Part shown: positions 13,798 to 34,456 of the stretch, piece by piece | Layout of the letters: each line of letters begins with the position of its first letter | Position numbering within the stretch: the stretch's first letter is position 1 | Assembly (NCBI GenBank): GCA_028720145.1 | Contig: JAQYLJ010000005.1 | Coordinates: 72,112 to 112,068 of the forward strand | DNA length: 39,957 nt | Source: Clostridia bacterium | GTDB taxonomy: Bacteria > Bacillota > Clostridia > Oscillospirales > CAG-272 | Reading direction: 5' to 3' | Notes under the pieces: model-generated | The model's database searches: none | The model's input: only the letters and a program-made list of their open reading frames with translations | Told to the model about the DNA's origin: nothing | Position numbers and translations under genes: made by a program

Positions 13798-15084
13798 ATG
13801 TTAGACATGAAATTTCTTCGGGAGAATCCCGACATTGTCAAAGAGAACATTAAAAAGAAATTCCAGGACGCCAAACTGCCGCTGGTCGACGAGGTAATCG
13901 CGCTGGACGCGGAGGCGCGTCGGGTACAGGCAGAGGCGGACACCCTGCGGGCGAACCGCAACAAACTCTCGAAACAGATCGGCGCCCTGATGGCGCAGAA
14001 GAAGATCGACGAAGCGAACGAGGTCAAGGCACAGGTGGCGGCGAACGCCGCCCGCCTCGCGGAACTCGAAGCGCAAGAGCCCGTCCTCGAAGAGAAAATC
14101 AGAAAAATCATGATGGTGATTCCGAACATCATCGACCCCTCGGTCCCCGTAGGACGCGACGACAGCGAGAATGTCGAAGTCGAGCGGTTTGGAGAGCCCG
14201 TGGTGCCGGACTTCGAGATCCCCTATCACACCGACATTATGGAGCGGTTCGACGGCATTGACCTCGACGCCGCCCGCCGCGTCGCAGGCAACGGATTCTA
14301 TTATCTCATGGGCAATATTGCCCGCCTGCACTCCGCTGTGATTTCCTACGCGCGTGACTTTATGATCGGACGCGGTTTCACCTATTGCGTCCCGCCGTTT
14401 ATGATTCGCGCCGATGTCGTGACCGGGGTCATGTCGTTTGCCGAGATGGAGAACATGATGTATAAGATTGAGGGCGAGGACCTCTATCTCATCGGCACCT
14501 CCGAGCACTCCATGATCGGGAAATTCATCGACACCGTCAACCCCGAAGAGAAACTCCCCTACACCCTCACCTCGTACTCTCCCTGCTTCCGCAAGGAAAA
14601 AGGCGCGCACGGCATCGAGGAGAGAGGTGTGTATCGGATTCACCAGTTTGAGAAACAGGAGATGATCGTGGTCTGCAAGCCCGAGGACTCCAAGATGTGG
14701 TTCGACAAACTGTGGCAGAACACGGTCGATCTCTTCCGCTCGATGGATATTCCCGTGCGGACGCTCGAATGCTGCTCGGGTGACCTCGCAGACCTGAAAG
14801 TCAAGTCGCTCGATGTCGAGGCATGGTCACCGCGGCAGAAGAAGTATTTTGAGGTCGGCTCCTGCTCGAACCTCGGCGATGCGCAAGCGCGCCGTCTCCG
14901 CATCCGCGTCAGCGGTCCGAACGGCAAATACTTCGCCCATACCCTGAACAACACCGTGGTCGCGCCGCCCCGTATGCTGATTGCCTTCCTCGAAAACAAT
15001 CTGCAAGCAGACGGCTCGGTCAAGATTCCCGAAGTGCTCCGTCCCTACATGGGCGGCACCGCCCTGCTCGTCCCGAAACATTGA
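13798..15084 (+). CDS. serS: Serine-tRNA ligase
   Basis: 428 residues, standard length; TGGAGGACA precedes the ATG at 13798. Residues 1 to about 110 form the two-helix antiparallel coiled coil that grips the long variable arm of tRNA-Ser. The class II core follows, with LIGTSEHSMIG (serine pocket), motif 2 CFRKEKGAHGIEERGVYRIH and motif 3 around HTLNNTVVAPPRMLIAFLEN. Motif 3 keeps its essential Arg but replaces the common bacterial NGSGLAVGR wording. The enzyme charges tRNA-Ser and tRNA-Sec. It is last in the pheS-pheT-serS unit; no T-box is seen, and an intrinsic terminator follows. Confidence 0.96.
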   Translation: MLDMKFLRENPDIVKENIKKKFQDAKLPLVDEVIALDAEARRVQAEADTLRANRNKLSKQIGALMAQKKIDEANEVKAQVAANAARLAELEAQEPVLEEKIRKIMMVIPNIIDPSVPVGRDDSENVEVERFGEPVVPDFEIPYHTDIMERFDGIDLDAARRVAGNGFYYLMGNIARLHSAVISYARDFMIGRGFTYCVPPFMIRADVVTGVMSFAEMENMMYKIEGEDLYLIGTSEHSMIGKFIDTVNPEEKLPYTLTSYSPCFRKEKGAHGIEERGVYRIHQFEKQEMIVVCKPEDSKMWFDKLWQNTVDLFRSMDIPVRTLECCSGDLADLKVKSLDVEAWSPRQKKYFEVGSCSNLGDAQARRLRIRVSGPNGKYFAHTLNNTVVAPPRMLIAFLENNLQADGSVKIPEVLRPYMGGTALLVPKH

Positions 15085-15132
15085 GGACGAGGGAGAACGA
15101 CACAAACGGAATCAAAGATACAAACAAAACAG

Positions 15133-15165
15133 ACAAGCACCCGTTTTTCTTGGGTGCTTGTTTTG
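15133..15165 (+). terminator. Terminator of pheS-pheT-serS
   Basis: ACAAGCACCC (15133-15142) pairs perfectly with GGGTGCTTGT (15152-15161), followed by TTTT. Confidence 0.9.
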
Positions 15166-15210
15166 GTATTCGGTTCCGACTGCTTGTGACCAGTAGGAGA
15201 TTCGAGTATC

Positions 15211-15644
15211 TGCCACCAAAAAGCCCCCCGACCGAGCGGGGGGCGTGGGGGAGTAAAAGCGTCCGAATGGGCGGGGACGCGTGGGAGTCAAAGTCTTCAG
15301 TGCGCCGGAACCCATAGGGTTCCTCGTTGAGAATGCCACTACTCTGTTATGTCTTCTTTCTTTGGCGACGCATTCTCGCACAGGACTTCGTTCTCCTGCA
15401 CGCGCGCCGAATTGGAGCACAGATGCCTGCCACAAAAAAGCCTCCGCCCAAGCGGGGACGCGCGGGAGTCAAAGTCTCTGTGCTCGGAACCCGAGGGGTT
15501 CCTTGTTGAGAATGCATAGGCAAAGAGAAAAGGAGAGCGGAGCGACACATTCTCGCGCAGGACTTTTCCTCCTGCACGCGCGCCGAATTGGAGCACAGAT
15601 GCCTGCCACCAAAAAGCCCCCCGACCGAGCGGGGGGCTTTTTGG
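15211..15644. repeat. Palindromic tandem array apparently derived from tRNA-Gln fragments
   Basis: Three units start at 15211, 15428 and 15604 with TGCCACCAAAAAGCC or a near copy, so the periods are 217 and 176 bp. Units one and two share two well-conserved blocks: GGGGACGCG..GGGAGTCAAAG through GTTGAGAATGC, and CATTCTCGC..CAGGACTT through GAATTGGAGCACAGATGCC, separated by a variable ~35-bp spacer. Each unit is strongly self-complementary (GAGAATG/CATTCTC, CTGTGCTC/GAGCACAG, GCAGGA/TCCTGC). Pieces match the adjacent tRNA-Gln: GGAGTCAAAGTC equals its anticodon arm on the minus strand, while CAGGACTT..TCCTGCACGCGC resembles the same arm on the plus strand and TGCCACCAAAAAG its 3' end plus terminator. 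The third unit is a perfect 21-bp inverted repeat (15602-15622, 15631-15651) overlapping the tRNA 3' end. Apparent open frames here are unlikely to be genes. Confidence 0.8.
15611..15642. terminator. tRNA-Gln terminator
   Basis: AAAAAGCCCCCC and GGGGGGCTTTTT form a perfect stem with an 8-base loop, starting two bases after the encoded CCA of the minus-strand tRNA. It reads equally well on both strands. Similar but decayed hairpins begin units one and two of the adjacent array. Confidence 0.8.
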
Positions 15645-15721
15645 TGGCAGGGATAGCTGGACTCGAACCAGCGCGTGCAGGAGTCAAAGTCCTGTGCCTT
15701 AACCGACTTGGCTATATCCCT
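15645..15721 (-). tRNA. tRNA-Gln (anticodon UUG)
   Basis: On the minus strand a complete cloverleaf reads from the acceptor AGGGATA (15721-15715) to TATCCCT (15655-15649), discriminator G and an encoded CCA (15647-15645). The anticodon stem CAGGA/TCCTG encloses CTTTGAC with anticodon UUG at 15687-15685, decoding CAA and, by wobble, CAG. The D-arm GCCAAGTCGGTTAAGGC and T-arm CTGGTTCGAGTCCAG are canonical. A consensus promoter lies 14 bases upstream, and a terminator that is also the edge of the repeat array begins just after CCA. Confidence 0.97.
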
Positions 15722-15734
15722 ATAAGCGGATTAA

Positions 15735-15763
15735 ATTGTAGCACAACTTCGGGGGGTTGTCAA
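15735..15763 (-). promoter_or_regulatory. Promoter of tRNA-Gln
   Basis: Minus-strand TTGACA (15763-15758), 17-bp spacer, TACAAT (15740-15735), placing initiation a few bases before the tRNA 5' end. Confidence 0.85.
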
Positions 15764-15862
15764 CGGGTAACGCCGAAAAGATGCCGTTTTGGGCGTTTTC
15801 CTATATTGTGGCTATTGCGGCAGGGTTACGGGAGCGGGGACAGGGGACGCGCGGACTTCCAC

Positions 15863-15891
15863 TTGACTTTTCGGGCGGGGCGTGATACGCT
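15863..15891 (+). promoter_or_regulatory. Promoter of rnc
   Basis: TTGACT (15863-15868), 17-bp spacer, TACGCT (15886-15891), 27 bases before the rnc start. The -10 is weak. Confidence 0.6.
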
Positions 15892-15918
15892 ATCGTCAGA
15901 CAAACACGGGAGGCGCGT

Positions 15919-16668
15919 ATGACGGAGCAACAGAAAACGGAACTGGAGACAATCCTCGGCTATCACTTCAAAAACCCCATGCTGCTCGAACAGGCGTTCA
16001 CGCGCTCGTCGTATGTCAACGAGCAGGCGCAAGGGGGGCACCCCGCGCGCACACAATCGAACGAGGTGCTCGAATTTCTCGGAGACAGCGTGCTGTCCGC
16101 CGCGCTCGCCTATCTGCTCGTCAACCGCTATGGAGAGGTGAACGACCGAGGGCTCACGACCAAACTCGCGGAAGAGGACTTCACCATCATCAAGAGCAAC
16201 ATGAGCGACAAGCGCGCACTCGCCGCCGCCATTCGGCGGCTCGGGGTCAATCGCTATCTGAAAATCTCCCGCGGAGACAGAAACCAAAATGTCCTCGAAC
16301 AGGACTCTCCGAATGAGGACCTCTTCGAGAGCATCATCGCCGCCGTCGCCCTCGACTGCGGCATGGACTTCCCTGTCATTGTCGAGACGGTGAAACGGCT
16401 CGACGACATCGACCGCCTGCTCACCGTCAGCGGCGACCGCGCCCACGCGCAAAAGAATCCGAAAAGCGCCGTCAAAGAGTGGTGCGAGGGCAAACACATT
16501 CCCTACACCTACGAACTCATCGCTGCGGAAGGACCCGACCACGCGCGGACCTTCACCGTCCGTCTCACCGTCTCGGGCTATCCGTCCGTCACAGGTAGCG
16601 GGTCGAGCAAGCCCAAAGCGGAGATGTCCGCCGCCGCCGCTTTCCTCGCAATGAAAGAACAGAAATAA
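15919..16668 (+). CDS. rnc: Ribonuclease III
   Basis: 249 residues; GGGAGG precedes the ATG at 15919. RNase III cuts double-stranded RNA, maturing rRNA precursors and processing or degrading mRNA and antisense duplexes. The signature NEVLEFLGDSVL spans residues 48-59 and carries Glu52 and Asp56; the second acidic cluster is DLFESIIAAVALD near 133-145. A flexible linker leads to a C-terminal dsRNA-binding domain (about 175-249), recognised by NPKSAVKEWCEG and the GSGSSKPKAEMSAAAAFL end. In many Bacillota rnc sits with smc and ftsY; here it stands alone between tRNA-Gln and yebC with its own promoter and terminator. Confidence 0.95.
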   Translation: MTEQQKTELETILGYHFKNPMLLEQAFTRSSYVNEQAQGGHPARTQSNEVLEFLGDSVLSAALAYLLVNRYGEVNDRGLTTKLAEEDFTIIKSNMSDKRALAAAIRRLGVNRYLKISRGDRNQNVLEQDSPNEDLFESIIAAVALDCGMDFPVIVETVKRLDDIDRLLTVSGDRAHAQKNPKSAVKEWCEGKHIPYTYELIAAEGPDHARTFTVRLTVSGYPSVTGSGSSKPKAEMSAAAAFLAMKEQK

Positions 16669-32883: not shown

Positions 32884-33020
32884 TTTTCGCGTTTGGGGCA
32901 TTCGCCCCGCAATATCGGTTCTCGGGGGTATTCCCCACCGCGGACGGTCGTCGCGGCATACGGAATCTCGCGGCAAGCGAGAAACCGCCCGCGAAGCCCC
33001 TCCGAAAATACCAAATAAGA
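32884..33020 (-). other. Hairpin-rich 3' trailer between rnpB and its terminator
   Basis: This ~137-base stretch has no plausible gene. Read on the minus strand it holds four short GC stems in succession: TCTCGC/GCGAGA, CCGCG/CGCGG, GGGG-AATA-CCCC and GGGGC-GAAT-GCCCC. It would be transcribed as the 3' extension of the RNase P RNA precursor and removed, or could persist as a small RNA. Confidence 0.5.
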
Positions 33021-33393
33021 AAACCAGACTTGTAAGCCGGGTTCTGTAAGCGCTCGCGCGCCCCGCAGTCATCTATCTTCACACACCGTTACCGATGTGT
33101 TCAGGACTTGCGTCCCTGCCGCCAACAGGATTCCGGCGGGCACCGTAGCGTTTCCGCTCTCCCGTAGGCGTTGCTTCGGATAGGGTTTACAGACCCTCTA
33201 TGTTGCCATAGAGCGTGGTGGGCTCTTACCCCGCCTTTCCACCCTTACCGCTTGCGCGGCGGTATCTCTCTGTTGCACTCTCCCGGAGGTCACCCTCGGC
33301 GGATGTTATCCGTTATCCTTCCCTGTGAAGCCCGGACTTTCCTCACGATACGACCTTTCGGCATGATATCGCGCGACTGCACCATCTGGTTCG
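33021..33393 (-). ncRNA. rnpB: RNase P RNA
   Basis: The minus strand holds the conserved regions of bacterial RNase P RNA in order: GAGGAAAGTCCGGGCT near the 5' end, GGTAAGGGTGGAAAGGCGGG and TAAGAGCCCACC in the middle, and ACAGAACCCGGCTTA near the 3' end. Helix P1 closes with AACCAGA (33391-33385) and TCTGGTT (33028-33022), which sets the ends to within a few bases. The length (~370) is normal. Its RNA is the catalytic part of the enzyme that trims tRNA 5' leaders. A perfect promoter lies immediately upstream, overlapping the thiT stop. Confidence 0.96.
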
Positions 33394-34338: not shown

Positions 34339-34355
34339 TTACTATCATTTGTTTG

Positions 34356-34445
34356 AAATGAGAACTTCCTACGACGGTATCAACCGTATCAGGTTCGAGG
34401 ATTCGGACATTCGTCCGTCTCAGCCTTGCGGCACTCCTGTTCACT
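34356..34445 (-). promoter_or_regulatory. TPP (THI-box) riboswitch
   Basis: The minus strand carries the diagnostic pieces in order: GGAGTGCC, GGCTGAGA, a variable stem (GGACGAATGTCC), TCGAACCTGATACGG, TTGATACCGTCGTAGGAAG. These are the pyrimidine- and pyrophosphate-sensor parts of the THI box. Flanks GAAC and GTTC can close P1. TPP binding should favour the terminator that follows, lowering thiT expression. Confidence 0.95.
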
Positions 34446-34456
34446 ATTCAATTCTG

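Follow-up and report, generated by a model that had tools for sequence, protein, structure and literature searches.

Described systems and the array behind tRNA-Gln

Tyrosine recombinases integrate at the 3' ends of tRNAs, and tandem tRNA pseudogenes are degenerate tRNA copies beside an intact tRNA. The GOLLD and ROOL RNAs are often found near tRNA genes and, to our knowledge, have no arms copied from a tRNA. The 3'ETS-leuZ sponge of E. coli is, as far as we know, single, and has no inverted tRNA copies, no tandem arrangement and no core common across tRNAs. It is described as a 53 nt RNA from the 3' external transcribed spacer of a tRNA transcript (PMC8166272); in that description it shares with the satellites proposed here a position downstream of the tRNA within one transcript, and possible functions in trans. 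Gut-1 RNA (RF01706), which occurs in the same genomes as these satellites, is listed as 'human gut only' (Weinberg 2010, PMC2864571).

We analyzed a window of 39,957 nucleotides (the whole stretch of DNA studied here), and found that its minus-strand tRNA-Gln(TTG) is followed downstream by two tandem units, 15427-15602 and 15210-15426, and a 22-bp palindrome. The features of this locus are listed below.

15735..15763, minus strand: promoter-like site of tRNA-Gln, TTGACA-17-TACAAT, 11/12 in a consensus scan (not evidence of function)
15645..15721, minus strand: intact tRNA-Gln, anticodon TTG (ARAGORN; Rfam tRNA 67.7 bits)
15602..15651, minus strand: terminator hairpin, with arms reaching into the tRNA-Gln 3' end
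15427..15602, minus strand: unit 2, adjoining the tRNA (repeats; fold z -3.5; homologous to the G060 unit)
15555..15581, minus strand: unit 2, tRNA anticodon arm plus variable loop, inverted copy (27 nt, 89% complementary)
15508..15554, minus strand: unit 2, hairpin E, GAGAATG/CATTCTC, arms 15548-15554 and 15508-15514
15486..15502, minus strand: unit 2, hairpin F, GGAACCC/GGGTTCC
15465..15476, minus strand: unit 2, direct anticodon-arm piece, GACTTTGACTCC on the tRNA strand
15428..15460, minus strand: unit 2, terminator-like end, T tract plus partial inverted tRNA 3' end
15210..15426, minus strand: unit 1, distal (repeats; fold z -2.4)
15378..15405, minus strand: unit 1, tRNA anticodon arm plus variable loop, inverted copy
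15329..15377, minus strand: unit 1, hairpin E, arms 15371-15377 and 15329-15335
15307..15323, minus strand: unit 1, hairpin F
15284..15295, minus strand: unit 1, direct anticodon-arm piece
15210..15244, minus strand: unit 1, terminator, 35 nt identical to 15603-15637

The order along the tRNA strand is tRNA-Gln, terminator, unit 2 (15602-15427) and unit 1 (15426-15210), and inverted and direct tRNA pieces flank a two-hairpin core in each unit. The arms of the terminator match perfectly over 22 bp (inverted repeat 15602-15623 / 15630-15651), with an A tract and a T tract on its two sides. The array is the convergence point of serS and tRNA-Gln, with rnc next on the plus strand, and the tRNA-Gln(TTG) was the sole full-length match to itself in its own assembly. 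Against 500 dinucleotide shuffles of the array, the inverted tRNA fragment scored 25 (shuffle maximum 16); the direct fragment, weaker alone, scored 19, equal to its shuffle maximum of 19. Unit 2 folded with z values of -3.5 (tRNA strand) and -2.1 (opposite strand). Unit 1 gave -2.4 on the tRNA strand; its full-length MFE structure is unlike that of unit 2, and its centroid retains the core. Tandem Repeats Finder reported no array within 15000-16000, because the two units are too diverged.

The motifs on which the original prediction relied were recovered at their positions: TGCCACCAAAAAG at 15211 and 15604, TGCCACAAAAAAG (one mismatch) at 15428, GGAGTCAAAGTC at 15284, 15465 and, within the tRNA itself, 15680, CAGGACTT at 15381 and 15558, and TCCTGCACGCGC at 15394 and 15570. 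It had counted three units, of which two are full units and the third is the terminator plus the intact tRNA. The perfect inverted repeat with the tRNA 3' end is present, with a length of 22 bp instead of the 21 bp given. The units had further been described as starting with a motif of tRNA 3' end plus terminator. Because the tRNA is on the minus strand, the plus-strand TGCCACC... is the inverted arm of the palindrome of tRNA 3' end and terminator and no direct copy.

We compared the array with Rfam 15, and no family scored above its gathering score. The tRNA covariance model (RF00005) matched only the intact tRNA-Gln, even at E up to 5, and did not recognize the units. Among hits that fell short of the gathering score, the terminator palindrome looked like microRNA precursors (mir-708 at 35.6 bits, cut-off 71), a resemblance that we attribute to chance. 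A scan of 12 related loci passed tRNA and Gut-1 only, neither of them on a unit, and GOLLD and ROOL had no match above the gathering score in the window or in these 12 loci. Gut-1 was likewise found nowhere in the window above its gathering score, and the array gave no match to it at E up to 5 either.

The units share some properties with each of these systems. As at tyrosine-recombinase integration sites, many units repeat the 3' part of the tRNA directly, beginning at the T-loop. At 176-336 bp, however, they are too short to hold an integrase or cargo between these copies, and they have long inverted copies and a covarying core. Like tandem tRNA pseudogenes, the units are degenerate copies adjoining an intact tRNA; unlike them, they alternate in orientation and carry foreign cores, their own terminators and a conserved fold. 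GOLLD and ROOL are also structured bacterial RNAs of unknown role, but far larger. Gut-1 consists of short hairpins with GAAAT-like spacers, in which no tRNA-derived arms were seen. Rfam and open-access full texts yielded no described RNA or mobile-element class matching a core with local-tRNA arms, and the conserved folded RNA core seems to be undescribed so far.

Gut-1 was found in 65 of the 69 genomes of the genus at E <= 0.001, and above its cut-off in 54 of 69. Three copies lie behind the class C unit (see below) of tRNA-Gln(CTG) in genome G060, where Gut-1 occurs within arrays of short hairpins with GAAAT-like spacers (L160, 927-1360).

Conservation of the tRNA-Gln array in a related species

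Among the 69 genus genomes searched, the closest relative is G060, whose tRNA-Gln is identical over 77 nt and is followed by three units at 336 bp spacing with 100% identity over 300 nt. A MAFFT alignment of the G060 units with the two window units gave a mean column identity of 72%; the second hairpin is misaligned there, and no pairs were counted on it. On the tRNA strand, the G060 unit is predicted to fold into the same parts as window unit 2 (z -3.8 against -3.5), and in both the predicted long stem of inverted and direct anticodon pieces bears two hairpins. Hairpin F of G060 is GGCACCC/GGGTGCC, with one compensatory pair relative to the window. The neighboring genes differ, with a BPD_transp_2 permease at the G060 array and serS and rnc at the window array, and the G060 rnc protein is 67% identical to that of the window. 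The tRNA-Gln was found in 0 of 29 relative loci around rnc (about 1.5 kb on each side), so synteny at rnc was rejected.

The proposal of repeated partial copies of the tRNA and its terminator, inverted and direct, is thus supported and extends to this relative, which carries the same architecture, and a structured RNA is plausible, as had been suggested. An element copying itself around the genome was not borne out: a DNA search of the window's own genome at E <= 0.001 returned only the window locus, which also argues against a MITE-like repeat, as that needs dispersed copies. At this threshold the units as such have no copies elsewhere in their own genome; the architecture recurs. In the genus, G060 was the only convincing match to the window units, and the other matches outside these two genomes were short, with E 0.002 or worse. 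The window core is a lineage-specific class (D), found in one relative. The class D units comprise three distinct sequences from two species with one clear compensatory pair, which suggests that their structure may be under selection.

tRNA-linked units across the genus and the class C core

To place the array in a wider context, we compared each tRNA with its own flanks, masking other tRNAs. In the window's own genome (G000), own-tRNA fragments were found downstream of 9 of 43 tRNAs, two of these matches being weak (Ala-ggc and Arg-tct), and upstream of none of the 43. In G060, where 38 of 39 tRNA matches entered the test, they were found downstream of 9 and upstream of 2 of 38. Since the upstream flanks are shorter, we also used flanks of equal length, which gave 9 against 0 of 43 in G000 and 9 against 2 of 37 in G060. 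For tRNA-Gln(TTG), fragments lay downstream at 13 and upstream at 2 of 50 genus loci (15 against 2 with equal flanks), and at 0 and 1 of 28 loci in other genera of the order. An earlier count (14 against 2 of 56 in the genus; 3 against 2 of 88 in other genera) had included other tRNAs in the same loci.

Inspection by eye showed a recurrent layout: a tRNA and its terminator, then an inverted piece of the T-arm, the core, a direct piece reaching from T-loop to CCA, and another terminator, often in tandem. The window units follow this layout, but their direct part is the anticodon arm only; the direct tRNA 3' end is absent from them and present in G060. The original prediction had linked the array to tRNA-Gln in particular. 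The same layout stands behind Ala, Arg, Cys, Glu, Gly, Leu, Met, Pro, Ser, Thr and Tyr tRNAs, and since other tRNA types carry units, a Gln-specific element is ruled out. The class A core was found behind Leu, Arg and Ala tRNAs, class B behind Arg, Leu, Met and Thr, and class C behind many tRNAs; class D is that of the window and G060. Unit presence at a given tRNA varies between species. The array is best read as one example of a class of tRNA-linked satellites, genus-wide and patchy in the family. The finding is real and larger than first stated, with good support for the layout as well as for the class C family.

At tRNA-Leu(GAG), tandem units occur in both G060 and G000 (L181, L191), and compensatory changes were seen by eye; the stem of their GGTATAACC hairpin is altered on both sides between the two genomes. 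Class A cores and related units (L176, L178, L138, L174, L177) have a GGU-apex hairpin in common; it is closed by either UCC/GGA or UUC/GAA, with one mismatch in L138, and the stems differ beyond that. A scan of named genomes with an exact class A pattern of 22 fixed bases matched two contigs, both CAMEJM01. The usual layout is reversed at two tRNA-Pro genes of G060 (L168, L170), which have 5'-part copies upstream.

To model class C, ten candidates were aligned with MAFFT; subtypes were mixed and P2 was misplaced, and seven stretches were kept as the seed (L079, L093 and L094 were dropped). Paired cells made up 94.2% of this seed against 81.1% in shuffles. The resulting model (R1) had matches in 60 of 69 genus genomes at E <= 0.05, seed genomes included. 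When 55 matches were aligned to the model, which leans the alignment toward structure, 98 double-change cells were found against 22.4 in shuffles. A MAFFT alignment of 30 class C sequences, independent of the model, gave 74 against 20.7, a value reached in 0 of 500 shuffles. RNAalifold recovered only the apical hairpin (6 pairs) from these 30 sequences. As the remaining pairs were placed by hand from columns, which can favor the structure, we applied slide controls, and pairing on the same alignment fell from 92.9% to at most 47.3%. Judged from these alignments, class C is a structured RNA family.

A core matched in so many genomes has to be set against the possibility that the arrays are a mutational by-product, in which terminator and tRNA hairpins provoke template switching during replication and alternating inverted and direct copies of tRNA ends then drift without function. 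The series of tRNA, terminator, inverted tRNA and direct tRNA is the layout expected of repeated fold-back copying, the genus is rich in short hairpin arrays (Gut-1 in 65/69 genomes, E <= 0.001), and units turn over rapidly between species. However, fold-back copying explains neither a covarying core matched in 60 of 69 genomes nor the similarity of the Gln-unit cores in two species whose rnc proteins are 67% identical, and we consider it unlikely.

We then examined where class C occurs. Of the 30 search loci, 22 had a same-strand tRNA upstream according to ARAGORN and eight had none, although a tRNA-Gly was seen by eye at one of these eight (L259). At 18 of these 22, the nearest class C copy begins 74-132 nt after the tRNA. 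In the order sample, class C was found in 12 of 295 genomes at E <= 0.001. Nine of these are among the 25 genomes of its own family (three of the genus and six of other genera; the other 16 had no match), and three are among the 270 outside it. Nine class C loci outside the genus comprise five behind a tRNA (Gly, Gln, Glu, Tyr, Pro) and four with no tRNA found. Class C copies with no tRNA in the stretch examined (L260, L281, L289, L292) may mark lost tRNAs or a second context. At tRNA-Gln(TTG), class C lies behind the tRNA in 12 of 55 genus loci, with one further weak and distant match, and in 0 of 29 loci of the order.

The class C model misses the Gln units of the window and G060, with no match in the window or L072 at E up to 0.001, or in L037 or L073 at E up to 0.01. 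The selection shown for class C is for this reason not transferable to the window units.

The arms of class C units were compared with the local tRNA. The test used 54 distinct matches (55 less one duplicate locus), of which 41 had a same-strand upstream tRNA and 13 were dropped. For the inverted arm, 26 of 41 units had flanks that fitted the local tRNA strictly better than any tRNA of the seven other amino acids; for the direct arm, this was so in 20 of 41. When the tRNAs were permuted 1000 times among the loci, the average was 3.2 units for either arm, and the highest counts were 10 (inverted) and 11 (direct). With one unit per locus, the counts were 22 inverted and 13 direct of 31. An earlier version (23 and 18 of 36) had used only some of the matches and counted repeated tRNAs as separate rivals. 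The shared core thus sits in arms fitted to each site.

Proposed transcription, folding and spread of the units

Our preferred reading, with a probability of about 0.48, is that the units are tRNA-linked RNA satellites, made on the tRNA strand by read-through of the terminator, with closing arms copied from the neighboring tRNA. Their function and spread are inferred.

G.T mismatches are compatible with an RNA fold on just one of the two strands. In 25 unit regions chosen by eye, the ratio of G.T to A.C on the tRNA strand was 13:3 for long-range repeats, 8:6 for hairpins and 8:0 for terminators, the positive control. Four column pairs of the class C T-stem gave 22:0, and two adjacent, poorly paired ones gave 5:4. 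The class C model pairs gave 3:3, and the RNAalifold pairs, which are energy-biased, 13:2. These counts are not independent, because the sequences are related; they lean toward RNA on the tRNA strand. The plus strand of the units likewise folds well; this speaks against the satellite reading, as do the near-even counts (8:6, 3:3 and 5:4), the varying presence of units at a given tRNA, the eight class C loci with no ARAGORN tRNA and the 16 family genomes with no class C match.

The same data bear on the possibility that the units are selfish, non-autonomous DNA cassettes, whose cores insert at the T-loop or other parts of downstream tRNA copies through a recombinase encoded elsewhere that recognizes folded single strands. 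The arms would then come from target duplication, and the covariation would reflect a DNA fold. Cassettes would account for the same core in different tRNA contexts with local arms, for the class C core directly after GGTTCG of the T-arm copy in the class C alignments, and for the patchy spread, including 3/270 genomes of other families; tRNA 3' ends are also classic integration sites. Against this, ordinary target duplication leaves the long inverted arms unexplained, and the one-strand G.T excess in part of the counts favors RNA. Scans of viral contigs with one exact class A and one exact class C pattern, which overlook diverged copies, gave 0 matches each, so that phage carriage was rejected. 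On balance we consider cassettes rather unlikely.

For the RNA satellites, a sigma-70 consensus scan found no promoter-like site inside the array, so read-through from the tRNA is the likely source, and the units would depend on read-through of a strong terminator. They would be co-transcribed with the tRNA and work through their RNA fold. The inverted arm has two possible partners, the direct copy within the folded unit and the tRNA within the read-through precursor, and so could couple tRNA folding or processing to read-through. The arrays may grow by unequal recombination between the repeated segments of tRNA end and terminator.

The terminated window transcript is predicted to retain the cloverleaf. 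In the predicted read-through transcript, the tRNA is drawn into a long helix with the inverted arm (z -8.15). At 19 of 24 class C loci, read-through folds placed at least 10 tRNA bases in downstream pairs. The controls, folded with 210 nt of downstream sequence, did so for 20 of 40 tRNAs that lack units and for 9 of 32 tRNAs of the order. These folds support the idea only, because tRNA MFE predictions are unreliable and co-transcriptional folding may prevent the pairing. A further possibility, which we regard as doubtful, is a tRNA-templated RNA switch, in which the inverted arm would either sequester the tRNA in the precursor or pair with the direct copy of the unit, and the conserved core (class C, D and others) would serve as a sensor or protein site. 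Such a switch would add a modular control layer to many individual tRNA genes in one bacterial family.

At the RNA level, the satellites would be attached modules that control or process single tRNAs; at the DNA level, they would form a novel type of miniature element whose ends are adapted to the target. The class C model makes either reading testable in existing gut metatranscriptomes. Insulation, by which hairpin stacks and two-way terminators would keep convergent transcription (here serS) from the tRNA gene, agrees with the convergence of serS and the tRNA on the array and with its repeated terminator-like sites, but requires neither tRNA-derived arms nor a conserved core and is very improbable.

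The RNase III-like gene adjoining the array (15919-16668) has two or three matches in 39 of 60 genus genomes, which are likely paralogues; a connection between these paralogues and the hairpin-rich genomes is only a thought. Elsewhere in the window, Rfam identified a TPP riboswitch (34349-34448) and an RNase P RNA (33017-33392), on the minus strand. A protein-coding reading of the array was rejected: no Pfam family matched, at E <= 0.001, the 213-aa plus-strand frame that spans 15281-15922 across array and tRNA, or the 384-aa frame through the G060 repeats (L072, 1637-2791, plus strand). Both long frames run antisense to the array and tRNA, and could be annotated as proteins.
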